Shown: piece by piece, positions 1-13,751 of the stretch
Numbering within the stretch: the stretch's first letter is position 1
Layout: every line of letters starts with the position of its first letter
Assembly (NCBI RefSeq): GCF_900104845.1
Contig: NZ_FNSR01000001.1
Span: 2,418,001-2,482,000, forward strand
Direction: 5' to 3'
Source: Paraburkholderia caballeronis
GTDB lineage: Bacteria; Pseudomonadota; Gammaproteobacteria; Burkholderiales; Burkholderiaceae
DNA length: 64,000 nucleotides
Notes under the pieces: generated by a model
What the model saw: only the letters and a program-made list of their open reading frames with translations
The model's database searches: none
Told to the model about the DNA's origin: nothing
Made by a program: the position numbers and the translations under genes

Positions 1-3000
1 TGTCGACCGCCACGCGCACGGTGTCGTTCTCGTTCAACGACGGCGTCGAGTCGAGCAACGTGGCCACCCGCGCCATCACCGTCACCGCCACCGACCAGAC
101 GCCGATCGTGACCGACGGCGGCGCGGCCAGCACCGGCTACGTCGCCGGCACGGCCGCGGTCAGGATCGACACCAGCCTGCACGTCAGCGACGCGGACACG
201 CCGAAGCTGGTCTCGGGCACCGTCACGATCGGTAGCGGCTACACGGCCGGCGACACGCTCGCGTTCAACAATTCGAACTCGACGCTGTACGGCGACATCA
301 TCGGCTTCTACGACCCGACCTCGCACAAGCTCACGCTGACGTCGGTAACCAACAACGCCACCGTCGCGCAATGGCAGAACGCGTTCGAGGCCGTCACGTT
401 CTCGAGCGCTTCGGGCACGTCGAGCGGCACGCGCGACATCGCGTTCGCGGTCAGCGACGGCACCGATACCAGCGCGCCGCTGCACCACAGCGTGGTGGTC
501 ACGCTCGGCCCGACGATCAGCACCGACACCGGCTCGGCGCAGTTCGCGAGCGGCAACAACGCCACCTCGACGCCGGTCGCGGTCGATCCGGGCATCCTGC
601 TCACCGACGGCAACAGCTCGACGCTGGTCAGCGCGACCATCTCGATCGTCGGCAACTTCCAGGTCAATCATGACGAACTGGTGTTCATCGGCAATCCGTC
701 GACGATGGGCAACATCAGCGGCGTCTACGACAGCGGCACGGGCATCCTGACGCTGACCGCGGCCGGCGGCGCGTCGCTGCTGCAGTGGCGGACCGCGCTC
801 GCCTCGATCCAGTTCACGAACGACCTGGTGGTGCCGTCCGCCCTGACCCGCACCGTCAGCTACCAGATCAACGACGGCACGCTGACCAGCCCGGTGGCCA
901 CGCGCACCGTGACCGTGACGGCCACCGACCAGACCCCGGTGCTCGGCGCCGGCGGCAATACCGTCGCGTTCTTCGCCGGCGACAACGTCGCCTCGACGCC
1001 GGTCACGGTCAACAACGCCATCACCGTCACCGACCGCGACGGCGGCCCGCTGCAGCAGGCCGTGATCACCATCACGAGCCATTACGAGGCGACCGACGTC
1101 CTCGGCTTCAACAACAACAGCACCGCGCTGTACGGCAACATCTCGGCCGTCTACACGAACGGCGTGCTGACGCTGACCTCGTCGGGCAGCCAGGCCACGC
1201 TCGTGCAGTGGCAGAACGCGCTGCGGGCCGTCAGCTACACGTCCACTGCGATCACGCCGGGCAACAGCGCGCGCACCGTGAGCTTCGTGGTCAGCGACGG
1301 CATCGAATCCAGCACGGGGGTCACTTCGACCCTGACGGTGACCGACACCGACCAGACGCCGGTGATCGGCGGCACGGCCGGCAGCGCCGCCTTCACGCAG
1401 GGCGACAACGCCCCCTCCACGCCGATCGCGGTCGATTCCGGCATCGTGCTGGCGGACCGCGACGGCAACACCTTCACGTCGGCCATCATCACGATCGGCA
1501 ACTACGACAGCAACGGCGACGTCCTGCTGTTCGCCAACAACGGCTCGACAATGGGCGACATCGTCGGTTCCTACACGAACGGCGTGCTGACGCTGATCTC
1601 GCAAAGCGGCACGGCCACCCTCCCGCAGTGGCAGGCGGCGCTGCGCTCGATCCGCTTCACCGACACCGCGGCCACGCCGAGCACCACGCAGCGTGCCGTC
1701 GGCTTCACCATCAGCGACGGCGCCAAGACCAGCGCCGCCTGGCAGCGCATCATCAACGTGACGCTGACCGACCAGTCGCCGATCGTCACCGACACCGGCG
1801 GCACCGTCAACTTCAGGTCGGCCGACAATGCCCCCTCCACGCCGATCGTGGTCGATGCCGGCGTGACGCTGACCGACTCCGACACGCTGACCATGACATC
1901 GGCCACCGTGGCGATCACCGGCAACTACCAGAACGGCGAAGACGTGCTCGCGCTCGGCAGCGGCTCGTTCGGCGACATCCAGGCGAATTTCGACGCCGGC
2001 ACCCTTACGCTGACCTCGGCCGGCGCGTCGACCAACGCTCAGTGGCAGGCCGCGCTGCGCTCGGTCACCTACACCGACACGGCCGCCGTCCCGCAGACCG
2101 CGAACCGCACCATCAGCTTCAGCGCCAACGACGGCACCAGGTCCAGCACCGGCTCAAGCAAGGTCATCGTGGTAGAAGCGACCCACCAGACCCCGGTGCT
2201 CGGCAGCTCGGCCAGCAGCGTCAGCCATCTGTCCGGCCAGGCCGCCACCTCGATCGACAGCGGCATCACGCTGACGGATCTGAACGCGAGCGGCTCGACG
2301 CTGGTCTCGATGTCGATCACGGTGCAGATCACCTCGGGGCTGCAGAGCGGCGACGCGCTCGGCCTCAGCCTGCCGACGTCGACGCTGACCAACGGCATGA
2401 ACGTCACCTACGACGGCACCAGCGGCACGCTGACGATCAACTCGACCGGCGGCACCCTCGCGCAATGGCAGACGGTGCTCGACAACATCCAGTTCTCGAC
2501 CGCCCCCAACGCCCCGCTCGGCGCGCGCACGCTCAGCGTGTCCATCAGCGACGGCGTGAAAACCAGCGCGCCGCTCGGCTATACCGTCGACGTGATCAGT
2601 TCCGCGCCGGCCCTCGCCACCTCAAGCAGCGGCAGCGCGAGCTTCGTGGCCGGCGACAATGCGGTTTCGACGCCGGTGGCGGTCGACCCCGGCCTGACGG
2701 TCGCGGATCCGCTCGGTAACGTGGTGGACAGCGCGGTGGTCGCGATCACGGACAACCCGCACATCGGCGAGGACCTGCTCCAGTTCGTCAACGACGGCCA
2801 GTCGATGGGCAACATCGCCGGCAACTACAATCCGTTGACCGGCGTGCTCACGCTCACGTCGATCGACGGCTCGGCCACGCTCGCGCAATGGCAGGCCGCG
2901 CTGCGCTCGGTCACCTATACCGACACCGCCGTCACGCCCGACACGGCCACCCGCACGCTCAGCTTCACGGTCAACGACGGCACGAAGGACAGCACCGCGC

Positions 3001-6000
3001 TCACGCGCACCGTCACCGTGACCGACGCCGACCAGACGCCGGTCATTTCAACCGGCAGCACCGGCAGCGCCTCATTCGCCGCCGGCGACAATGCGGTTTC
3101 GACGCCGGTTGCCGTCGATAACGGCATCATCTTGTCGGACCGCGACAACACCACGCTGGCCTCGGCCACCGTGCAGATCGGCAGCGGTTTCCACGCAGGC
3201 GAGGATGTGCTCGGCTTCATCAACGACGGCACGATGGGCAACATCACGGCCAGCTACGACGCCGCCGACGGCACGCTGACGCTGACGTCGGCGAGCGGCA
3301 CCGCCACGCTTGCGCAGTGGCAGGCCGCGCTGCGCTCGGTCACCTACACCGACACGGCGATCACGCCGGACACGGCTACCCGCTCGATCAGCTTCGCCGT
3401 CAGCGACGGCACGCAGACGAGCGCCGCGCTCACGCGCGACGTCACCGTGGCCGACACCGACCAGACGCCGATCGTGGGCTCCACGAGCAGCGGCGCGACC
3501 TCGTTCGTGTCGGCGGACAACGGGCCGTCGAGCCCCGTCACGGTCGATACCGGCATCGTCGTCAGCGATCTCGACAACACCACGCTCGCCTCGGCCACCG
3601 TGCAGATCGGCGCGGGTTTCCACGCGGGCGAGGACGCGCTCGGCTTCGCCAACGATGGCCTGTCGATGGGCAACATCACGGCCAGCTACGATGCCGCGAC
3701 GGGTACGCTCACGCTCTCCTCGCTCGACGCGAGCGCCACGCTCGCGCAATGGCAGGCCGCGTTGCGCTCGGTCACCTATACCGACACGGCTGTCACGCCC
3801 GATACGGCCACCCGCGCCATCGGATTCAGCGTCAACGACGGCGTGAAGACAAGCGCCCCGCTCTCGCGCGCCGTGACCGTCACGGCCACCGACCAGACGC
3901 CGGTGATCTCCGGCGGCAGCACCGGTTCGGCCGCGTTTGTGGCCGGCGACGATGTCGCCTCCACGCCGGTGGCGGTCGATGCCGGCCTCACGCTGTCGGA
4001 CGCCGACAACACGACGCTCGCGTCGGCCACCGTGCAGATCGGCAGCGGCTTCCACGCCGGCGAGGACCTGCTCGCGTTCACGAACGACGGCGCGACGATG
4101 GGCAACATCGCCGCCAGCTACGACGCATCGACCGGCACGCTGACGCTGACCTCGGCCGGCGCGAGCGCCACGCTCGCGCAATGGCAGACGGCGCTGCGTT
4201 CGGTGACCTACACCGACACGGCGATTACGCCGGATACGGCTGCCCGCACGCTCAGCTTCACGGTCAACGACGGCACGAAGTCGAGCGCCGCGCTCACGCG
4301 CACCGTCACCGTGGCCGACACCGACCAGACGCCGATCGCAGGTTCGTCCAGCAGCGGGTCGGCTTCGTTCGTGTCAGGCGACAACGCACCGTCGACGCCG
4401 GTTACCATCGATAACGGCCTCACGTTGTCCGACCTCGACAACCCGACGCTCGCATCGGCCACCGTGCAGATCGGCGCGGGTTTTCATGCCGGCGAGGACG
4501 TGCTGTCGTTCACCAACGACGGCGCGACGATGGGCAACATCACCGCCAGCTACGACGCATCGACCGGCACGATGACGCTGACCTCGGCCGGCGCGAGCGC
4601 CACGCTCGCGCAATGGCAGGCCGCGCTGCGCTCCGTGACCTATACCGACACGGCAATCTCGCCGGATACGGCTACGCGCACGATCGGCTTCACCGTCAAC
4701 GACGGAATCAAGAGCAGCACGACGCTCGCACGCACCGTGACGGTGACCGATACCGACCAGACGCCGGTGATCTCGACCAGCAACAGCGGTTCGGCCCCGT
4801 TCGTCGCTGGCGACAACAGCCCCTCGACGCCGGTCGCCGTCGATAACGGCATCACGCTGTCGGACCTCGACAACACGACGCTCGCGTCGGCCACCGTGCA
4901 GATCGGCGCGGGTTTTCATGCTGGCGAGGACGTGCTGTCGTTCACCAACGACGGCGCGACGATGGGCAACATCACCGCCACTTACGACCCATCGACCGGC
5001 AGACTGACGCTGACCTCGGCCGGCGCAAGCGCCACGCTTGCCCAGTGGCAGGCCGCGCTGCGCTCCGTGACCTATACCGACACGGCAATCTCGCCGGATA
5101 CGGCTACGCGCACGATCGGCTTCTCCGTCAACGACGGAGTCAGGAACAGCACGACACTCACCCGCGCCGTGACGGTGACCGATACCGACCAGACGCCGGT
5201 CATCTCGACCGGCAGCATCGGTTCGGCCTCGTTCGTATCAGGCGACAACGCACCGTCGACGCCGGTCGCCATCGATAACGGCCTCACGTTGTCCGACCTC
5301 GACAACCCGACGCTCGCGTCGGCCACTGTGCAGATCGGCAGCGGCTTCCATGCCGGCGAGGACGTGCTCGCGTTCACCAACGACGGCGCGACGATGGGCA
5401 ACATCACCGCCAGCTACGACGCATCGACCGGCACGATGACGCTGACCTCGGCCGGCGCGAGCGCCACGCTCGCGCAATGGCAGGCCGCGCTGCGTTCGGT
5501 GACCTACACCGACACGGCGATTACGCCGGATACGGCCGCCCGCACGCTCAGCTTCACGGTCAACGACGGCACGCAGACGAGCGCGGCGCTCACGCGCACC
5601 GTCACCGTGGCCGACACCGACCAGACGCCGATCGCAGGTTCGTCCAGCAGCGGGTCGGCTTCGTTCGTGTCCGGCGACAACGCACCATCGATTCCCGTCG
5701 CCGTCGATAACGGCCTCACGCTGTCGGACATCGACAACACCACGCTGGCCTCGGCCACCGTGCAGATCGGCGAGGGTTTTCATGCCGGCGAGGACGTGCT
5801 CGCGTTCACCAACGACGGCGCGACGATGGGCAACATCACCGCCAGCTACGACCCATCGACCGGCAGACTGACGCTGACCTCGGCCGGCGCGAGCGCCACG
5901 CTCGCGCAATGGCAGGCCGCGCTGCGCTCCGTGACCTATACCGACACGGCAATCTCGCCGGATACGGCTACGCGCACGATCGGCTTCACTGTCAACGACG

Positions 6001-7721
6001 GAGTCAGGAACAGCACGACGCTCACCCGCGCCGTGACGGTGACCGATACCGACCAGACTCCGGTCATCTCGACCGGCAGCATCGGTTCGGCCTCGTTCGT
6101 GTCAGGCGACAACGCGCCGTCGACGCCGGTCGCCATCGATAACGGCCTCACGTTGTCCGACCTCGACAACCCGACGCTCGCGTCGGCCACCGTGCAGATC
6201 GGCAGCGGCTTCCATGCCGGCGAGGACGTGCTCGCGTTCACCAACGACGGCGCGACGATGGGCAACATCGCCGCCCGCTACGACGCATCGACCGGCACGC
6301 TGACGCTGACCTCGGCCGGCGCGAGCGCCACGCTCGCGCAGTGGCAAGCCGCGCTGCGCTCGGTCACCTACGTCGACACGGCGGTCATCCCCGCCACGGC
6401 CACGCGCACGATCGGCTTTTCCGTCAACGACGGCACGAAGTCGGCCGCCCCGCTGTCGCGCAACGTCACGGTCACCGCGACCCACCAGACGCTCTCGATC
6501 GACACCGGCGACACCACCGTGCCGTACACCGCCAGCGGCGACGCGTCCGCGACGGTCGCGGTGGGCGCCGGCATCACGCTGACCGACCTCAACGCAACTG
6601 CGCCGACCTCCGCGACCGTGTCGTTCGGCGGCACGTTCGATCCGCAGCACGACGTGCTCGCGTTCGCGCCCGGCGGCGCGACCGGCAACATCACCGCGAG
6701 CTACGACGCCGCGCGTGGCGTGCTCACGCTCACGTCGAACGGCGCGACCGCGACGCTCGCGCAATGGCAGGCCGCGCTGGCGGCGGTCAGCTATCGCGAC
6801 ACGCAGGTCGAACATGCGGACAGCACCCGCACGCTCGTCTTCGCGTTCGGCGACGGCACCGCATCGAGCGCACCGGCCACGCGAACGCTGGAGATCACCG
6901 GCGTGCCGCAGCCGGTCGGCACGCCGATCCTGCCGCCGTCGCAGCCCGACCGTCTGCGCGAGCCCGCCGTCGTCGCACCGCCGCCCGTACTGCCCCTGGG
7001 CCGCGGCAATCCGCTGATCGTGACCAGCGCCAACGGCAGCAGCGACAACGTCTCGAACCCGCTGATCGTGCTGAACGCATTCGATATGCCGCAGCAGATC
7101 AGCCCGATTGCGCCCCGGACGACCTTCACGTTCGCGGCGCAGGGCGCGCGCGCGGATACCCTGGGCGGCACGCATGTCGCCCAGCTCGACTCGATCGTGC
7201 CACGCGGCGTCGACGTCGCGGTCCCCGCCGCACGCACGCTGCCGGCGGCCGACGTTCATCCGCTGCCCCAGGCCGGCAGCGGATTCGCGCTGAACGTCGT
7301 CCCGCTGCTGCAGGCGCCGGCGGCGCACGACGCCGCGCAAGGCGGAGCGGACATCGCCGTCACGCTGTCCGACGGCGCGCCGCTGCCGTCGTGGCTCCAC
7401 TACGACCCGGTGCGCGGCGTGCTGACCGGCACGCCGCCGAACGGCCTGCACTCGGTGCGCATCACGCTGCTGGTGCGCGATGCGGCCGGCAACGTGACGC
7501 GCCGCGACGTCGTCGTCCGCTTCGATGCACCGGGCGCCCCCGCGACGGCCGCGCCCGCGCGCGACGCGGCAAAACCGGCCGCCCGGCCGCATGCCGCGCT
7601 GCCGCCCGCCAAGGCTTCGCTCGCCGCGCAGTTCGCGAACGCGCACGCCGCACTGCACGTCGCCCGCCAGGAGGCGGCGGCGCCCGACGGGCAGCACGCC
7701 GCCGTGGAGCACCATTCGTGA
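1..7721 (+). CDS. Giant tandem-repeat surface/secreted protein, C-terminal part (5' end outside window)
   Basis: The reading frame is open from the first bases of the window (codons in phase with base 3), so the GTG at 21 is internal and the N-terminus lies outside. About 2,570 residues are visible. They form roughly 16 tandem Ig/cadherin-like modules of about 140-144 residues. Each module has a TDQTP-type linker, a GDNAPSTPV-type strand, GFHAGEDVL, NDG-TMGNI, LTLTSA, and an almost invariant LAQWQAALRSVTYTDTA block, followed by a FTVNDG strand. Near the end is a different module containing PSWLHYDPVRGVLTGTPP, which resembles putative-Ig (He_PIG) domains. The extreme C-terminus is Ala/Pro-rich and ends EHHS. 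I see no RTX nonapeptides, sortase motif or autotransporter barrel. Four export-like genes follow in the same direction, so I infer an exported adhesin or matrix protein. Ligand and exact family are unknown. Confidence 0.85.
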   Translation, partial: STATRTVSFSFNDGVESSNVATRAITVTATDQTPIVTDGGAASTGYVAGTAAVRIDTSLHVSDADTPKLVSGTVTIGSGYTAGDTLAFNNSNSTLYGDIIGFYDPTSHKLTLTSVTNNATVAQWQNAFEAVTFSSASGTSSGTRDIAFAVSDGTDTSAPLHHSVVVTLGPTISTDTGSAQFASGNNATSTPVAVDPGILLTDGNSSTLVSATISIVGNFQVNHDELVFIGNPSTMGNISGVYDSGTGILTLTAAGGASLLQWRTALASIQFTNDLVVPSALTRTVSYQINDGTLTSPVATRTVTVTATDQTPVLGAGGNTVAFFAGDNVASTPVTVNNAITVTDRDGGPLQQAVITITSHYEATDVLGFNNNSTALYGNISAVYTNGVLTLTSSGSQATLVQWQNALRAVSYTSTAITPGNSARTVSFVVSDGIESSTGVTSTLTVTDTDQTPVIGGTAGSAAFTQGDNAPSTPIAVDSGIVLADRDGNTFTSAIITIGNYDSNGDVLLFANNGSTMGDIVGSYTNGVLTLISQSGTATLPQWQAALRSIRFTDTAATPSTTQRAVGFTISDGAKTSAAWQRIINVTLTDQSPIVTDTGGTVNFRSADNAPSTPIVVDAGVTLTDSDTLTMTSATVAITGNYQNGEDVLALGSGSFGDIQANFDAGTLTLTSAGASTNAQWQAALRSVTYTDTAAVPQTANRTISFSANDGTRSSTGSSKVIVVEATHQTPVLGSSASSVSHLSGQAATSIDSGITLTDLNASGSTLVSMSITVQITSGLQSGDALGLSLPTSTLTNGMNVTYDGTSGTLTINSTGGTLAQWQTVLDNIQFSTAPNAPLGARTLSVSISDGVKTSAPLGYTVDVISSAPALATSSSGSASFVAGDNAVSTPVAVDPGLTVADPLGNVVDSAVVAITDNPHIGEDLLQFVNDGQSMGNIAGNYNPLTGVLTLTSIDGSATLAQWQAALRSVTYTDTAVTPDTATRTLSFTVNDGTKDSTALTRTVTVTDADQTPVISTGSTGSASFAAGDNAVSTPVAVDNGIILSDRDNTTLASATVQIGSGFHAGEDVLGFINDGTMGNITASYDAADGTLTLTSASGTATLAQWQAALRSVTYTDTAITPDTATRSISFAVSDGTQTSAALTRDVTVADTDQTPIVGSTSSGATSFVSADNGPSSPVTVDTGIVVSDLDNTTLASATVQIGAGFHAGEDALGFANDGLSMGNITASYDAATGTLTLSSLDASATLAQWQAALRSVTYTDTAVTPDTATRAIGFSVNDGVKTSAPLSRAVTVTATDQTPVISGGSTGSAAFVAGDDVASTPVAVDAGLTLSDADNTTLASATVQIGSGFHAGEDLLAFTNDGATMGNIAASYDASTGTLTLTSAGASATLAQWQTALRSVTYTDTAITPDTAARTLSFTVNDGTKSSAALTRTVTVADTDQTPIAGSSSSGSASFVSGDNAPSTPVTIDNGLTLSDLDNPTLASATVQIGAGFHAGEDVLSFTNDGATMGNITASYDASTGTMTLTSAGASATLAQWQAALRSVTYTDTAISPDTATRTIGFTVNDGIKSSTTLARTVTVTDTDQTPVISTSNSGSAPFVAGDNSPSTPVAVDNGITLSDLDNTTLASATVQIGAGFHAGEDVLSFTNDGATMGNITATYDPSTGRLTLTSAGASATLAQWQAALRSVTYTDTAISPDTATRTIGFSVNDGVRNSTTLTRAVTVTDTDQTPVISTGSIGSASFVSGDNAPSTPVAIDNGLTLSDLDNPTLASATVQIGSGFHAGEDVLAFTNDGATMGNITASYDASTGTMTLTSAGASATLAQWQAALRSVTYTDTAITPDTAARTLSFTVNDGTQTSAALTRTVTVADTDQTPIAGSSSSGSASFVSGDNAPSIPVAVDNGLTLSDIDNTTLASATVQIGEGFHAGEDVLAFTNDGATMGNITASYDPSTGRLTLTSAGASATLAQWQAALRSVTYTDTAISPDTATRTIGFTVNDGVRNSTTLTRAVTVTDTDQTPVISTGSIGSASFVSGDNAPSTPVAIDNGLTLSDLDNPTLASATVQIGSGFHAGEDVLAFTNDGATMGNIAARYDASTGTLTLTSAGASATLAQWQAALRSVTYVDTAVIPATATRTIGFSVNDGTKSAAPLSRNVTVTATHQTLSIDTGDTTVPYTASGDASATVAVGAGITLTDLNATAPTSATVSFGGTFDPQHDVLAFAPGGATGNITASYDAARGVLTLTSNGATATLAQWQAALAAVSYRDTQVEHADSTRTLVFAFGDGTASSAPATRTLEITGVPQPVGTPILPPSQPDRLREPAVVAPPPVLPLGRGNPLIVTSANGSSDNVSNPLIVLNAFDMPQQISPIAPRTTFTFAAQGARADTLGGTHVAQLDSIVPRGVDVAVPAARTLPAADVHPLPQAGSGFALNVVPLLQAPAAHDAAQGGADIAVTLSDGAPLPSWLHYDPVRGVLTGTPPNGLHSVRITLLVRDAAGNVTRRDVVVRFDAPGAPATAAPARDAAKPAARPHAALPPAKASLAAQFANAHAALHVARQEAAAPDGQHAAVEHHS
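3000..6480 (+). repeat. High-identity 432-bp tandem repeat block inside the giant protein gene
   Basis: The LAQWQ anchor codons recur at about 3317, 3749, 4181, 4613, 5045, 5477, 5909 and 6341, an exact spacing of 432 bp (144 codons). The step before 3317 is 429 bp and the one after 6341 is shorter, so the strict period is confined to the middle. Units also copy each other at higher-order shifts: the block near 5045 is almost identical to the one near 5909 (864 bp, two units), and the one near 4181 matches the one near 5477 (1,296 bp, three units). Outer modules are much more diverged. This is the pattern expected from recombination or conversion among internal units. Confidence 0.9.
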
Positions 7722-7771
7722 CCCTCGCTTTCCTTACCCAGCCTGCCATTTTTCATAAGAGACCAGTCGAA

Positions 7772-9361
7772 GTGAAAACCTTGTCGCTCGGGGGACGCGC
7801 ACCGCGCCCCGCACTGCTTGCGGTCGCGGTCGCGGTCGTGTGGCTGTCCGGCTGCGCCGTCAAGCCCGCCCCGTTCTCCGACGCGGAGCGCGCCGAAACG
7901 GCCCGCGCCGATCGCACGGCCATGTTCGCGGACCAGCAGCCGGTATCCGGACCGATCACGCTCGACGAAGCCATGGCGCGCGCGATCCGCTACAACCTCG
8001 ACCATCGCCTGAAGATGATGGAAGAAGCGCTCGCGCAGCGTCAGCTCGATCTGTCGAATTTCGATCTGCTGCCGAAGCTGACCGCGGAGGCCGGCTACAC
8101 GAACCGCAATCACCCGCTCGCATCGGCGTCGGAAGGTCTGTTCACCCGCGAGGAATCGCTGATCCCGTCGTACTCGACCGACCAGAACAGCCGCACCGCG
8201 GACCTGAACCTGTCGTGGAACCTGCTCGACTTCGGCGTCAGCTACTACGAGGCGAAGGAACAGGCGGACCACGTGCTGGTGCTCGAACAGCGTCGCCGCA
8301 AGGTCGTGCAGTTGATGATGCAGCAGGTGCGCGAGGCGTACTGGGAAGCGATCGGCGCGCAACGCCTGCGCGACCGGATCGGGCCGCTGCTCGACGACGC
8401 GCGCAGCGCGCTCGACGATTCGCGCAACGCGCAGCAGCAAGGGCTGCGCTCGCCGGTCGACACGCTGACCTATCAGCGCACGCTGCTCGACCTGATGCGT
8501 CAGCTCGAAGCCGTGCGCGACCAGCTCGAAGAAGCGAAACCGCGCCTCGCGTCGCTGATGAATCTCGAACCCGGCACGAACTTCACGCTCGCGGCGGCCG
8601 ACGCGTTCCCGGTGCCGGCCTTCGACATGCCGATGCCGCAGATGGAAGACATGGCGCTGCAACGCCGTCCCGAACTGGTCGAGGCAAGCTACAACGAGCG
8701 GATCAGCGTCAACGAAACGCACAAGGCCATGGCGAAGCTGCTGCCGGGCATCGAGTTCAGCCTCGGCGCGCATTACGACAGCAACAGCTTCCTCGTCTAC
8801 AACGCGTGGCGCTCCGCCGGCATCAGCGTGAGCTGGAACCTGCTCAATCTGCTGAACGCCCGCAACATCCGCGGCACCGCCCAGGCGCAGCTCGACGTCG
8901 CGAAGGTGCAGCGGATGGCGCTCAGCATGGCGGTGCTCACGCAGGTTCACGTCGCGCGCAGCGAACTCAGCGCGAAGACGCGCCAGTTCGATCTGCTCCG
9001 GCAACTGAACGACGTCGATCAGCAGATCCTCGAACACACGCACAATGCGACGGTCGCGAATGCACAGGGCAAACTCGACGAGATCCGCGTCGCGACCGCC
9101 GCGATGATGTCGGAACTGCGCCTTTATCAAAGCTACGGCGAACTCGAAAGCGCGTACGGCCAGATGCTCGCGACGCTCGGCCTCGATCCGGTGCCGGACC
9201 AGTTGAACGGGCGCGATATCGCGTCGCTGATGCAGTCGATCGGCGACGAGCAGAAACGCTGGGACGAGCTGGCGCGGCATGGCGCGACGGCCGCCGTCGC
9301 GCAGCCGGGTCCGACGATCGCGGCGGCCGCGGCGCTCCCGGCGGGAGCCACGCAGAAATGA
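7772..9361 (+). CDS. TolC-family outer-membrane efflux lipoprotein
   Basis: 529 residues from a GTG start just after the giant gene. I chose this start because it opens directly into a lipoprotein signal peptide: basic start, hydrophobic core, then lipobox LSGC with Cys at about residue 28. The mature part has the two-fold outer membrane efflux protein pattern: an early LDEAMARAIRYNL helix, LDLSNFDLLPKLTAEAGY, strand region NLSWNLLDFGVSYYEAKEQ, and in the second half ISVSWNLLNLLNARN, with long alpha-helical hairpins between. It should form the outer-membrane channel of a tripartite exporter. Its stop overlaps the next start (ATGA), so it is translationally coupled to the HlyD gene. It is likely dedicated to the upstream repeat protein (inference from order). 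Confidence 0.88.
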   Translation: MKTLSLGGRAPRPALLAVAVAVVWLSGCAVKPAPFSDAERAETARADRTAMFADQQPVSGPITLDEAMARAIRYNLDHRLKMMEEALAQRQLDLSNFDLLPKLTAEAGYTNRNHPLASASEGLFTREESLIPSYSTDQNSRTADLNLSWNLLDFGVSYYEAKEQADHVLVLEQRRRKVVQLMMQQVREAYWEAIGAQRLRDRIGPLLDDARSALDDSRNAQQQGLRSPVDTLTYQRTLLDLMRQLEAVRDQLEEAKPRLASLMNLEPGTNFTLAAADAFPVPAFDMPMPQMEDMALQRRPELVEASYNERISVNETHKAMAKLLPGIEFSLGAHYDSNSFLVYNAWRSAGISVSWNLLNLLNARNIRGTAQAQLDVAKVQRMALSMAVLTQVHVARSELSAKTRQFDLLRQLNDVDQQILEHTHNATVANAQGKLDEIRVATAAMMSELRLYQSYGELESAYGQMLATLGLDPVPDQLNGRDIASLMQSIGDEQKRWDELARHGATAAVAQPGPTIAAAAALPAGATQK

Positions 9362-10170
9362 GGCGGTTCGCGAAATACCGCGCGGCGGCCGCGATCGCGC
9401 TGCTCGTCGCGGCGCGGTCCGCCGTCGCGGCACAACCCGCGGCACAACCCGCACCGCCGCCCGCCCCGTCCGCACCCGCCGCATCGCCGGCTCCGGCCAT
9501 CCCGGACAGCGGCGATCCGCGGATCCGGATCCAGCTCGTCTCGCGCGACCAGGTCGACGTGTCGAGCGAGATTTCCGCGAAGATCGCGTCGCTGCCGTTC
9601 CGCGACGGCGACGCGTTCCGCGCGGGACAAACGCTCGTCACGCTCGACTGCTCGCTGTTCAACGCGCAGTTGCACAAGGCCCAGGCCGACGCCGACGGCG
9701 CGCGCGACCTGCTCGACGTGAACCGCAAGCTGCAGGCGCTGCACTCGATCGGCGAACTGGAGGTGCAGCAGGCGCAGGCGAAGCAGAAGGCCAGCGCCGC
9801 CGACGTCGCGTACATGCAGGCCACCGTGCGCAAATGCGCGATCGCCGCGCCGTTCGACGGCCGGGTGTCGAAACGCAGCGCGTCGCCGCAGCAGTTCGCC
9901 GAGCCCGGCAAGCCGCTGCTGACCATCATCGACACGAGCCATCTCGAACTGAAGATGATCGTCCCGTCGAAGTGGCTCGCATGGCTGAAGCCCGGTCACG
10001 CGCTGAACGTGCAGGTGGACGAGGTCGGCAGGACCTATCCGGCGAAGGTGGCGCGGATCGGCGCGCGCGTCGATCCGGTGACGCAGACCGTCGACGTGAC
10101 GGCGTCGCTGACCGGCAGCGCGCCGGAACTGCTGCCGGGCATGAGCGGCTGGGCGACCTTCGCGCGGTGA
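9358..10170 (+). CDS. Periplasmic adaptor, HlyD/RND membrane-fusion family
   Basis: 270 residues; the ATG overlaps the stop of the TolC-like gene. An N-terminal signal peptide (Arg-rich start, AAAAIALLVAARSAVAA) is followed by a Pro/Ala-rich linker to about residue 50. Then come a split lipoyl half-motif (EISAKIASLPFRDGDAFRAGQTLVTLD), a helical hairpin rich in Gln/Ala, the second lipoyl half (IAAPFDGRVSKRSASPQQF..GKPLLTI) and a beta-barrel segment ending PGMSGWATFAR. It lacks a membrane anchor apart from the signal peptide. It is a canonical adaptor that would bridge an inner-membrane component to the TolC-like channel. It is shorter than most RND adaptors (about 370 residues). Confidence 0.87.
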   Translation: MRRFAKYRAAAAIALLVAARSAVAAQPAAQPAPPPAPSAPAASPAPAIPDSGDPRIRIQLVSRDQVDVSSEISAKIASLPFRDGDAFRAGQTLVTLDCSLFNAQLHKAQADADGARDLLDVNRKLQALHSIGELEVQQAQAKQKASAADVAYMQATVRKCAIAAPFDGRVSKRSASPQQFAEPGKPLLTIIDTSHLELKMIVPSKWLAWLKPGHALNVQVDEVGRTYPAKVARIGARVDPVTQTVDVTASLTGSAPELLPGMSGWATFAR

Positions 10171-10174
10171 CGCC

Positions 10175-11620
10175 ATGACGGAAACGCGCACGCCGGAAGG
10201 GACGGCGCAGCAGGCTCGCATCGACGGCCAGCAGCTTGCGCTGTTGTGGCAACTGTCGGCCCGCGCACGCGCGGCGGCCAGCGAGGCGACGCTCGGCTTC
10301 ACGATCGTCAACGAGACGCTGGCGCTCGTTCCGTACCGGCAGGCGGCGTGGTGGCGCGGCGACGCGCCCGGTCACGTCGCCGCCGTGTCCGGCCTGCCGC
10401 AAAGCGACCCGAATGCGCCGTACGTGCAGTGGCTCGGCGCGCTGTGCAGGACGCTCGCGCGCGGCCTGCGGCCCGCGCCGCCCGCGCCGGCCGCCGCGCA
10501 CGTCGAGGGACAGGGCGCGCCGGTGCTGCCGGCGCGGCCGCAGGTGCGAACCTTCACGGCCGCCGATCTGCAGGCCGACGCGCCGCACGTCGCCGCCGAG
10601 TGGAGCGCGTGGTGGCCCGCGCACGGCGCGTGGCTGCCGCTCACCGACCGCGGCGGCCATCCGGCCGGCGGCGTGGTGTTCGCGCGCGACGACGCGTGGT
10701 CCGCAACCGACACGGCATTGCTGACCGAACTGGGTCAGGTGTGGGCGCATGCGTTCGAGGCGTTCTCGCCGCGCGCGTCGTGGCTCGAACGCGCGCGCGC
10801 CGCGCTGCGCCCCGGCCGCCAGCAGCGCCGCGTGCTGATCGGGCTCGCGATCCTGTGCGTGATCCCGATGCGACTGACGGTGCTGGCGCCGGCGGAAGTC
10901 ACGCCGAAAGACCCGTTCGTGGTCCGCTCGCCGCTCGACGGCGTGATCGATCGCCTGTACGTGAAGCCGAACCAGCCCGTGCAGCGCGGCACGCCGCTGC
11001 TCGGCCTCGACGCGACGACGCTGCAGTCGCGTTACGCGGTCGCCCGCAAGGACTTCGACACCGCGCAGGAGGAATACCGGCAGACCGAACAGCTCGCCGT
11101 CACCGACGACCGCACGCGGCTCGACATGGCCGAGCGCCGCGGCAAGCTCGACCAGAGCCGGGTGGAACTCGACTACACCGCGCGGCAGCTTGCGCGCGTG
11201 AACGTGAACGCCACGCGTTCCGGCGTCGCAGTGTTCAGCGATCCCAACGAATGGACCGGCAAGGCGGTGGCGGTCGGAGAAAAGATCCTCGTGCTCGCCG
11301 ATCCGGCCCGCGTCGAGGTGACCGCGTGGCTGCCGGTGGCCGACAACATCGACGTGAAGCCCGGCACGTCGCTCACGCTGTATCCGAAAAGCTCGCCGCT
11401 GTCGAGCTACGACGCGCGGATCGATTCGATCGCGTGGCGCGCGGAGCCGACGCCGGACGGCGTGCTCGCGTACCGGGTCCGCGCGACCTTCGCCGCCGGC
11501 GACACGCACGCGCCGCTCGGCGCGATGGGCACCGCGCGCATCCGCGGCCCCTGGGTGCCGGCGATCTATTACGTGCTGCGCCGCCCGCTGACGCTCGCGC
11601 GTCAATGGCTGGGCTGGTAA
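10175..11620 (+). CDS. Membrane-anchored HlyD-type adaptor with N-terminal GAF-like domain
   Basis: 481 residues, starting 4 bases after the previous stop. The first ~205 residues are cytoplasmic-like and resemble a GAF sensor fold (LALLWQLSARARAA.., WLPLTDRGGHPAGGVVFARDDAW.., LLTELGQVWAHAFEAF). A single hydrophobic segment at about 220-237 (VLIGLAILCVIPMRLTVLAP) crosses the inner membrane. It is followed by a lipoyl/HlyD region (VVRSPLDGVIDRLYVKPNQPVQRGTPLLGLD), a coiled-coil hairpin and a second half (RSGVAVFSDPNEWTGKAVAVGEKILVLADP). A GAF-HlyD fusion would let the export complex respond to a cytoplasmic signal. The GAF assignment rests on overall pattern only; the adaptor domain is clear. 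Confidence 0.82.
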   Translation: MTETRTPEGTAQQARIDGQQLALLWQLSARARAAASEATLGFTIVNETLALVPYRQAAWWRGDAPGHVAAVSGLPQSDPNAPYVQWLGALCRTLARGLRPAPPAPAAAHVEGQGAPVLPARPQVRTFTAADLQADAPHVAAEWSAWWPAHGAWLPLTDRGGHPAGGVVFARDDAWSATDTALLTELGQVWAHAFEAFSPRASWLERARAALRPGRQQRRVLIGLAILCVIPMRLTVLAPAEVTPKDPFVVRSPLDGVIDRLYVKPNQPVQRGTPLLGLDATTLQSRYAVARKDFDTAQEEYRQTEQLAVTDDRTRLDMAERRGKLDQSRVELDYTARQLARVNVNATRSGVAVFSDPNEWTGKAVAVGEKILVLADPARVEVTAWLPVADNIDVKPGTSLTLYPKSSPLSSYDARIDSIAWRAEPTPDGVLAYRVRATFAAGDTHAPLGAMGTARIRGPWVPAIYYVLRRPLTLARQWLGW

Positions 11621-11636
11621 CGCGCCGCGTCGCCCC

Positions 11637-13751
11637 ATGGCCCGACTTCCGCAACTTCGCCAGGAACTGACGCTCACGCCCGGCGCGGCGACGCCCGACG
11701 GCGCGCCGACCTGGATGCTGCACGATCCCGCCGCGAACCGGTTCTTCCAGCTCGGCTGGCCCGCGTTCGAACTGCTGTCGCGCTGGCCACTCGACGATCC
11801 GCTCGCGATCGTCGAGGCCGTCAATCGCGAAACGACGCTGACCGTCACGCCCGACGACCTCGACGCGCTGGTGCGCATGCTGCGCCAGCAGAGCCTGCTG
11901 GTCGCCGCGACCGCGGCCGACACCGCGCGGCTCGAACATCACAAGGCCGCGCAGCGGACGAGCCGCGCGATGTGGCTGCTCAAGCACTACCTGATGATCC
12001 GGGTCCCGCTGTGGCATCCGATGCCGTTCCTGCGGGCCGCCGCGCGCCACGTCGCGTTCGCGTACCGGCCCGCGTCATGGCTGATCGTCGCGGCCGTCGC
12101 GATGACCGGCCTCGTCCTCGTGTCGCGCCGCTGGGACGAATTCGTGCATACCTTCCACGGTTATGCCGACTGGCGCGGCCTGATCGGCGTCGGCATCGCG
12201 CTCGGTTTCGCGAAGGTGCTGCACGAGTTCGGGCATGCGTTCACGGCGCAGCGGCACGGCTGCCGCGTGCCGACGATGGGCGTCGCGCTGCTGGTGATGC
12301 TGCCGGTGCTCTACACGGACACGACGGAAGCGTGGAAGGTGGCGGCGCGCAAGGACCGCCTGTGGATCGGCGCGGCCGGCATGCTGAGCGAGATCGCGCT
12401 CGCCGCGTTCGCGACGCTCGCATGGAGCCTGCTGCCCGACGGCCCGCTGCGCGGGGGCGCGTTCCTGCTCGCGACGACCACCTGGATCGCCACCCTCGCG
12501 ATCAATGCGAGCCCGTTCATGCGCTTCGACGGCTATTTCCTGCTGTCCGACTGGCTCGACATGCCGAACCTGCACGACCGCGCCTTCGCGCTGGGCCGCT
12601 GGTGGCTGCGCGAATGGCTGTTCGGCTTCGGCGATCCGCAGCCCGAACCGTGCAGCGCGTCGCGGCGCCGCTTCCTGATCGCGTTCTCGTTCGCGACGTG
12701 GCTGTACCGGCTTGTCGTGTTCCTGTCGATCGCGCTGGTCGTCTACCATGCATTTTTCAAGCTGCTCGGCATGCTGCTGTTCTGCGTCGAGTTCGGCTGG
12801 TTCATCGTGCGTCCGATCTGGCGCGAGACGCAGGCGACCTGGCAGCGCCGCGACGAACTGCGCTGGTGTCGCGAGACGCGGCGCAGCGCGCTGCTCGGCG
12901 CGGCGGCTGTCGCGTTCTTCGTCGTGCCGTGGCACGCGGGCGTCAGCGCGCCGGCGGTCCTCGCGCCGCAGCGCGCGCAGGGTCTCTATACGGTCGCGGC
13001 CGGTTATCTCGCCGACCAGCCGCCGCCCGCGCGCGACGGCCAGCGGGTTCGCGCAGGCGACACGCTCGCGGTGCTGGCGTCGCCGGACCTCGAAGCCCGG
13101 CTCGCCGCCGCGACCGCCAGCGAGGCGCTGCTGCACTGGGAAGTCGACCAGCAATCGTTCGACGAGCGCCTGCAACAGCAAGGCACCGCGCTCGCGCGGC
13201 GCTGGGACGCGACGCGACAGACCGTGGCCGGCATCCAGGCCGAAATCGCGCAACTGACGATCCGCGCGCCGTTCGACGGCACCGTGCAGACCGGCGACGA
13301 CCCGCCGGCGCCCGGCACGTGGCTGCCGCGCGGCGAACGCGTGTACGACCTGATCGCACCCGGCGGCGTGAAGGGCGACGCGTACGTGGGCGAGGACGAC
13401 GTCGCGCGCCTGAAGGCCGGGCAATCCGCCGTCTTCGTCGCGAGCCTGCCGGAACTCGCGGCGCGCGACTGCCGCATCGATGCGATCGACAAGGTCAACG
13501 TCGCGACGCTCGACGCGCCGTCCGTCGCCAGCACGTATGGCGGCCCGATTCCCGCGGAACCGAACGCGAAGACCCGTCAGCTGGTGCCGCTACAGGCGAC
13601 GTGGCAGGTGCGGTTCGGCGGTTGTGACGGCGAGGCCGGCATCGGGCGCGAAGTCAACGGCACCGTGCAGCTGGGCGCGGGCCGGCAGAGTTTCGTCGGG
13701 GAAGGCCTCCGCTTCGTCGCGGCGGTACTGCAACGGGAGGTCGGGTTCTGA
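11637..13751 (+). CDS. M50-type zinc metalloprotease fused to HlyD/lipoyl-like domain
   Basis: 704 residues. Residues ~1-95 look like a PqqD-type peptide-binding domain (WMLHDPAANRFFQLGWPAFELLSRW). Several membrane helices follow. A zinc motif HEFGH lies at residues 196-200, and a second metal-ligand region NASPFMRFDGY has Asp at about 298, as in site-2 proteases (M50). The last ~250 residues carry an HlyD-like biotinyl-lipoyl unit with a short helical hairpin (GDTLAVLASPDLEARL.., IRAPFDGTVQTGDDPPAPGTWL). In this gene set the protein occupies the inner-membrane slot where a type I system would have its ABC ATPase. It might process or export the repeat protein; that role is inference. It ends the operon. 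Confidence 0.83.
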   Translation: MARLPQLRQELTLTPGAATPDGAPTWMLHDPAANRFFQLGWPAFELLSRWPLDDPLAIVEAVNRETTLTVTPDDLDALVRMLRQQSLLVAATAADTARLEHHKAAQRTSRAMWLLKHYLMIRVPLWHPMPFLRAAARHVAFAYRPASWLIVAAVAMTGLVLVSRRWDEFVHTFHGYADWRGLIGVGIALGFAKVLHEFGHAFTAQRHGCRVPTMGVALLVMLPVLYTDTTEAWKVAARKDRLWIGAAGMLSEIALAAFATLAWSLLPDGPLRGGAFLLATTTWIATLAINASPFMRFDGYFLLSDWLDMPNLHDRAFALGRWWLREWLFGFGDPQPEPCSASRRRFLIAFSFATWLYRLVVFLSIALVVYHAFFKLLGMLLFCVEFGWFIVRPIWRETQATWQRRDELRWCRETRRSALLGAAAVAFFVVPWHAGVSAPAVLAPQRAQGLYTVAAGYLADQPPPARDGQRVRAGDTLAVLASPDLEARLAAATASEALLHWEVDQQSFDERLQQQGTALARRWDATRQTVAGIQAEIAQLTIRAPFDGTVQTGDDPPAPGTWLPRGERVYDLIAPGGVKGDAYVGEDDVARLKAGQSAVFVASLPELAARDCRIDAIDKVNVATLDAPSVASTYGGPIPAEPNAKTRQLVPLQATWQVRFGGCDGEAGIGREVNGTVQLGAGRQSFVGEGLRFVAAVLQREVGF

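Follow-up and report, generated by a model that had tools for sequence, protein, structure and literature searches.

Organization of the locus

The stretch of DNA analysed here, called the window, is 64,000 nucleotides of Paraburkholderia caballeronis (C1:2418001-2482000 in a 7.1-Mb genome of three contigs). It opens with the end of a gene for a giant repeat protein, followed by genes for a TolC-family lipoprotein, a small HlyD-family adaptor, a GAF-HlyD fusion and a PqqD-M50-HlyD fusion. Judged from sequence comparison, this five-part module has been kept together in distantly related bacteria, and we consider it an even call whether the locus is a self-contained module that would export its own giant to the cell surface without an ATP-binding cassette (ABC) exporter.

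The five genes all lie on the + strand and nearly abut, and their coordinates bear out the proposal, made in a sequence-only reading of the window, of five near-contiguous same-strand genes over 1..13751. The stop codon of the giant is at window position 7721 and the TolC gene runs from about 7772, while the HlyD gene overlaps the end of the TolC gene by 4 bases (9358 versus 9361). The features are the following (G and L numbers are our labels for genomes and loci):

1..7721, + strand: 3' part of the giant repeat protein, from its open reading frame (ORF); full 3,132-aa gene in L006:323-9721
369..6900, + strand: repeat array, from the positions of the repeat landmark (about 369 to 6,762; end approximate)
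7608..7634, + strand: C-terminal motif AKASLAAQF, common to type-A (window-type) giants, 37 residues before the end
7772 (GTG) or 7781 (TTG)..9361, + strand: TolC-family outer-membrane channel with lipobox WLSGC (PF02321, 105.8 bits)
9358..10170, + strand: small HlyD/RND-type periplasmic adaptor with a signal-peptide-like start (TIGR01730, PF13437, PF16576)
10175..11620, + strand: GAF-like domain, one transmembrane segment and HlyD adaptor (PF13437, 62 bits; hydropathy; profile comparison)
11637..13751, + strand: PqqD-like start, M50 domain (site-2-protease type) and HlyD tail (PF02163, 29.1 bits; PF13437, 41.5 bits)
12222..12236, + strand: zinc motif HEFGH (residues 196-200) of the M50 protease, from sequence and alignment

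The giant had been credited with more than 2,500 residues. The giant repeat ORF is real, but the window lacks the start of the gene, which lies at C1:2416323, 1,678 bases ahead of window base 1, and the full length is 3,132 residues. The LEPR motif and the caspase-fold domain described below were invisible to the sequence-only reading because both precede window base 1.

The giant protein

The N-terminus of the giant reads PLLLALEPRVVYDAS and is followed by DUF4347. It contains, at residue 35, the motif LEPRVVYDA, which is visible by eye; the LEPR-8K model NF012209 scores 13.9 bits, under its cut-off of 17, and the giant is therefore not a member of the LEPR-XLL family by that model. Its membership in DUF4347 (PF14252) is clear, with 190.3 bits against a cut-off of 24.6 at residues 125-288. 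The modelled DUF4347 domain, to which the fold comparison was applied, has a caspase/CHAT fold (clan CD), the families being listed according to Foldseek's own ranking. The giant has exactly one cysteine, Cys222, which falls within DUF4347, as does His178; in an alignment of 22 relatives read by eye, the cysteine is present in 22/22 and the histidine in 19/22, as a putative His-Cys dyad. According to PMC12322963, the Burkholderia thailandensis DUF4347 protein BTH_II1339 is among the most raised stationary-phase proteins.

The repeat array is marked by 15 copies of the landmark QW[QR][ATN]A[LF] between residues 683 and 2814, mostly spaced by 138-144 residues. The Cadherin-like profile PF16184 matches the giant weakly (23.9 bits, cut-off 25.5), and lysine makes up 0.6% of its residues. 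A pattern search found no RTX GGxGxD/N motif in the giant, and a BPSL1661-type RTX adhesin, a protein described in PMC8760936 as having a hemolysin-type calcium-binding domain, was set aside for this reason.

Near its end, the giant carries the C-terminal motif listed above. It occurs in 42 of the 56 ORFs of the giant set and in 31 of 558 other ORFs; it had first been noticed on visual inspection of the very loci that served for this count, and the 56 include some unrelated large ORFs, one of which holds the L118 match (816 aa). Outside that set it is found in 5/6 proteins; these five have an intact end, and two are closely related to proteins already known, while the sixth stops at a contig edge.

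Channel, adaptors and the PqqD-M50-HlyD fusion

HlyD_3 (PF13437) is above its cut-off in all three adaptors. The small HlyD protein also matches PF16576 and the RND_mfp model TIGR01730 (122 bits, cut-off 94.9), and the best-scoring adaptor models on it are of the EmrA/RND type. The type I model for HlyD, TIGR01843, gives 18.1, 20.7 and 22.4 bits on the three adaptors against a cut-off of 208.65. The type I TolC model, TIGR01844, likewise stays at 53 bits against 225.15, although the OEP/TolC family PF02321 is recognized. In the GAF-HlyD fusion, hydropathy points to one transmembrane segment near residues 218-242 and thus, by topology, to a cytoplasmic position of the GAF-like part. The GAF assignment of the sequence-only reading holds in part: the Pfam match of the window protein is weak (E 0.099), but a profile comparison with the clear GAF domains of its relatives reaches 88% probability (E 3.1e-6, 116 columns), two controls remaining at 0.1-0.2%.

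The last gene encodes a member of the M50 (site-2 protease) family, as it has both the HExxH motif and the second zinc-ligand motif, and it scores 29.1 bits with Peptidase_M50 (PF02163; cut-off 27.2). The residues His196, Glu197, His200, Asn290 and Asp298 are invariant in 81/81 aligned proteins and likewise in 19/19 of a wider set. The model of the daptide HExxH protease, NF041824, gives 149.4 bits for a cut-off of 300. The PqqD-like start that had been read in this protein is borne out in part. Pfam reports no PqqD in the window fusion, but when profiles are compared its start reaches 32.9% (E 4.6e-4), while six other segments of this protein stay at 0.1-0.5%, and two named type-B relatives exceed the Pfam cut-off of 23.4, with 28.7 and 24.1 bits.

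No ABC gene is linked to this set. In the 20 kb upstream and the 64-kb window (84 kb), a Walker-A scan of frames of at least 150 aa found none, and tblastn with three ABC proteins (one exporter and two small ones) gave no match at E <= 1e-3, both methods having recovered ABC genes at control loci. An ABC gene immediately upstream of the giant, the outcome that would have spoken against an ABC-less set, is thereby ruled out, and no ABC exporter ATPase is encoded with the set in these 84 kb. As the locus falls short in the type I tests for the ABC, HlyD and TolC components, it is not filed as type I secretion, though it may work alike.

Conservation of the module

Relatives of the M50 fusion number at least 4,944 at E <= 1e-10 (database search, 8,000 candidates scored), the closest homologues among the matches listed being from Burkholderia species. 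Locus counts were made by a genome-contig scan of the best 80 loci among the matches listed, many of which end at contig ends. By title, they come from Burkholderia, Paraburkholderia, Chromobacterium, Azospira, Serratia, Pseudomonas, Azospirillum, Magnetococcales, Nitrospira, a Geobacteraceae metagenome-assembled genome and others, so that the module recurs in Proteobacteria, Nitrospira and others. The 80 loci hold a TolC gene in 55 cases, a small HlyD in 65, a GAF-HlyD in 75, a giant ORF in 62 and an ABC ORF in 5. When only the 29 loci with at least 9.8 kb on both sides are considered, these numbers are 24, 27, 29, 26 and 3, respectively, and the ABC ORFs seen are of 230-367 aa, below exporter size. 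The M50 gene thus does lie beside giant ORFs (26/29 full-flank loci), and the earlier claim of an ABC-less set tied to giant repeat proteins holds well beyond this genome.

The module is also found on plasmids. On those of Azospirillum argentinense and Burkholderia anthina, the annotation shows DUF4347 - TolC - RND adaptor - HlyD - HlyD in a row. An Escherichia coli IncFIA/IncFIB plasmid (NZ_CP081687.1, L193:8830-28581) has a complete window-type cassette, in the order giant (4,459 aa) - TolC - adaptor - adaptor - M50 fusion, with a giant that begins MTTIKNRRLRPRAHRFALESRQLFDGAA and contains DUF4347 (159.2 bits). The M50 gene of this plasmid is present in 24/5,426 E. coli genomes, over at least 80% of its length in 22, and 21/25 of its places are on plasmids.

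Association of LEPR, DUF4347 and the M50 fusion

A set of 274 genomes of the class contains 42 with the M50 fusion, 31 with DUF4347 (30 above cut-off) and 23 with both, a co-occurrence with a hypergeometric p of 1.1e-15, uncorrected for kinship. When 30 DUF4347 proteins were read, the LEPR pattern was found in 21, of which 20 are from genomes with the M50 fusion, the remaining one, G245, having none. For the nine LEPR-less proteins, the fusion is present in the genome for three (one protein being truncated and one a LEPR variant) and not for six. The link between LEPR and the M50 fusion among DUF4347 proteins has a Fisher p of 8.8e-4, in a table that counts the truncated G193 and the variant G258 as LEPR-less and leaves out G068. 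The background of the pattern is 62/1,406 ORFs, some of them true members. The pattern overlooked LEPRIAFDA in L151, and five of the seven rows without LEPR in the locus table are unrelated ORFs by reading.

LEPR-less DUF4347 proteins appear to use other routes: G034, G128, G165 and G186 have Sec-like signal peptides by eye, and in G249 (L182-L183) a LEPR-less DUF4347 giant is near a canonical C39-like ABC exporter with HlyD. The DUF4347 head would therefore pair either with LEPR and the cassette or with another route. Since some giants next to the cassette have LEPR but no DUF4347 (L120, L121, L127, L138 and L150), it is LEPR, not DUF4347, that is the common mark.

A sister form with a SecA-like gene

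Sister M50 fusions, 20-30% identical to that of the window, adjoin a gene for a SecA-like protein of 640-700 aa. These neighbours amount to 15 ORFs from 14 genomes, many of these loci holding only 1.5 kb of flank, and the gene is present in 5/5 named plasmid records (Mesorhizobium ciceri, Methylosinus sp. C49, Pontibrevibacter nitratireducens, Rhodobacteraceae M382 and Ensifer adhaerens). The SecA-like proteins have SecA_DEAD (310-347 bits), the SecA P-loop and preprotein-binding domains; they have no wing-scaffold domain, which is present in the own SecA of the window's genome. Among seven examined, Walker A is TGEGKT in 7/7 and the DEAD-box motif is found by pattern in 6/7. In Methylosinus, the order is giant - DUF3467 - adaptor - 'PqqD family' M50 fusion - SecA-like - adaptor - TolC. 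LEPR is present in three named sister-form giants, as MEPRVLLSAD, LEPRVLLNAD and LEPRLLLSAD, and one type-B (sister-form) giant is annotated LEPR-XLL by NCBI. In the M50 tree, a branch (98/97) has all 22 window-type proteins on the same side, and every SecA-adjacent one falls in the other half (100/100). The genome of the window has a single SecA, a second match being weak (20.3 bits) and below cut-off.

These data do not support the proposal, as it was stated, that the protease occupies the ATPase position: a SecA-like ATPase sits beside the protease in the sister clade, and protease and motor are therefore different parts.

A small DUF3467 gene lies 3' of the giant in three SecA-type cassettes (L209:6605-6910, L210:9553-9873 and L211:7689-7970).

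A possible secretion mechanism

The reading we put forward, tentatively and a little short of an even chance, is a new type of secretion in which the LEPR leader would be read by the PqqD-M50-HlyD fusion and a SecA-family motor would drive the giant straight out via HlyD and TolC. By analogy with the leader-binding domains of peptide-modification systems, the LEPR region would be an export leader bound by the PqqD-like domain, and the M50 protease would cut it. SecA would power the inner-membrane step, the sister form using its dedicated SecA-like protein and the window's form the housekeeping SecA. The periplasmic arms of the M50-HlyD and GAF-HlyD fusions, together with the small HlyD, would dock the TolC channel, so that the chain would leave in one step. 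The caspase-fold domain, with the sole cysteine of the giant, might cleave the giant or restrain it after passage, and the GAF domain might gate the machine on a cytoplasmic signal.

Several observations weigh against this reading, in addition to the limits given above for the LEPR and C-terminal motif counts and to protein G245. The energy source is the weakest link of the proposal in the window's clade; it is there a guess, because no SecA-like gene was found at the window-type loci (ORFs of 80 named loci). The SecA-adjacent label is not a clean clade in the tree, because it also takes in four neighbours with short flanks in which no SecA was seen. The window protein has a modest match to PqqD, and the histidine of the putative dyad is absent from 3/22 aligned relatives. 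A typical Sec signal peptide is not evident by eye in the giants, the first 125 residues of the window's giant peaking at 1.59 on the Kyte-Doolittle scale (most hydrophobic 15-residue window). A Thiotrichaceae giant (L108:4438-13305) adjoins a window-type M50 gene with a Sec-like start and no LEPR, three full-flank loci (L123, L126 and L156) have no giant ORF, and the C-terminal motif is absent from three named giants of the SecA-linked form.

It is rather unlikely that the M50 fusion is itself the inner-membrane passage, its membrane domain and two HlyD arms conducting the chain by proton-motive force or outside folding, with no role for SecA in the window's clade. Such a passage would fit the lack of a motor gene in that clade, the three HlyD arms, two of which are fused to membrane proteins, and the EmrA/RND-type adaptor models that score best on the small HlyD. 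However, we know of no M50 protease that conducts whole proteins, and the sister clade retains a SecA-like ATPase with intact motifs.

Quite unlikely, in our opinion, is a type I ABC exporter encoded elsewhere that would give the ATPase in trans, the locus giving only adaptors, channel and processing protease. The window's genome does have an LssB-type type I ATPase on another replicon (C3:987197; 830 bits, cut-off 693), LssB is above cut-off in 20/50 cassette genomes, this one included, and the common C-terminal motif of the giants sits where type I signals lie; the first two of these facts also count against the SecA-driven reading. Among the 30 LssB-negative genomes, 16 chosen by their low best scores were tested for PrtD and HlyB, the other 14, whose intermediate scores reach 604 bits and probably reflect different full-length exporters, being outside this test. 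PrtD is above cut-off in 3/16 and HlyB in 0/16, so that 13/16 M50-bearing genomes, among them the window-type G119, G123, G162, G194, G310 and G319 and also SecA-type genomes, have no type I ATPase above the LssB, PrtD and HlyB cut-offs. Several of the 16 are drafts, and shorter or below-cut-off ABC exporters do occur in them, as they do in any genome, such as a 733-aa C39-like exporter in G310. ABC export in trans is further disfavoured by the lack of RTX GGxGxD/N in the giant and by LEPR, which tracks the M50 gene and not an ABC gene.

We regard as very improbable that the set is no exporter at all, and that a surface protein which leaves by the general route happens to have as its neighbour an operon for multidrug-type efflux or a signalling cascade of the site-2-protease kind. 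In favour of this, many efflux systems contain HlyD- and TolC-family proteins, the RND_mfp cut-off is exceeded by the small HlyD, and M50 proteases often have a signalling role. Against this, the linkage to LEPR giants is conserved over phyla and in two M50 clades, and the LEPR-less DUF4347 proteins, with their Sec-like signals or type I neighbour, are mostly without an M50 gene. Least probable of all is a cassette that only processes, anchors or releases the giant after export by another system, in the manner of LapG/LapD with LapA-type adhesins, since a full outer-membrane channel and three adaptors exceed the needs of release and no other exporter is linked, even though the M50 protease and the caspase-fold domain are both cleavage devices and one genome has a PAS/GGDEF gene between giant and cassette (L067-L068).

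Relation to known systems

What the locus shares with type I secretion (HlyB-HlyD-TolC; LapBCE of LapA-type adhesins) is the TolC channel, adaptors of the HlyD family, genes in one run and a single substrate, a giant repeat protein resembling an adhesin. It differs by the lack of an ABC ATPase in the locus, by adaptors and TolC far under the type I cut-offs, by an N-terminal signal candidate and by the absence of RTX repeats. Accessory Sec systems are of the SecA2 type, and the sister clade likewise has an extra SecA-like ATPase and a dedicated large surface protein; here, however, the SecA-like gene sits with HlyD, TolC and M50 genes in diderms, its product lacks the wing-scaffold, and it is absent at the window's locus. 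Leader-peptide systems of the PqqD/RRE type that use M50 proteases, among them the daptide HExxH protease and YydH, have in common with the locus an M50 membrane protease, a PqqD-like domain and a leader-like N-terminus on the partner, but the protease is here fused to an HlyD arm and the substrate would be a giant instead of a small peptide. LEPR-XLL proteins (NF012209) share the N-terminal LEPR on very long proteins, whereas their family model names no export partner and the motif of the window's giant is under the model cut-off. Finally, the DUF4347 type VI secretion effector Tce1 has been solved in complex with Hcp3 (PDB 9qpe), while DUF4347 here heads a giant repeat protein.

In the open-access literature, which is the literature covered, no description of the five-gene set was found. 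To our knowledge, the known protein routes through TolC use an ABC exporter. If the SecA-driven reading is true, the module would be a distinct secretion route made of TolC/HlyD arms and a leader-reading membrane protease, with a SecA-type motor in one branch. LEPR-XLL, DUF4347 and the PqqD-M50-HlyD fusion, all three orphan labels so far, would together gain a role, and it would become clear by what route many bacteria of soil, water and plants bring proteins of between 3,000 and more than 10,000 residues to the exterior.

Neighbouring genes

In genome G190, the PAS/GGDEF gene mentioned above separates the M50/HlyD genes from a giant DUF4347 ORF of 5,974 aa or more (L067:18024-20000 with L068:1-1146), which hints at control by cyclic di-GMP. 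In Pseudomonas ovata, GNAT, DUF6916-like and phage-tail-collar genes lie between cassette and giant (L162:12210-13737), and on the B. anthina plasmid a tail fiber gene is directly 5' of the giant (L192:1454-2068). In the window's own genome, a small hydrophobic frame and a UbiA-type gene are found about 0.9 kb 5' of the giant start.

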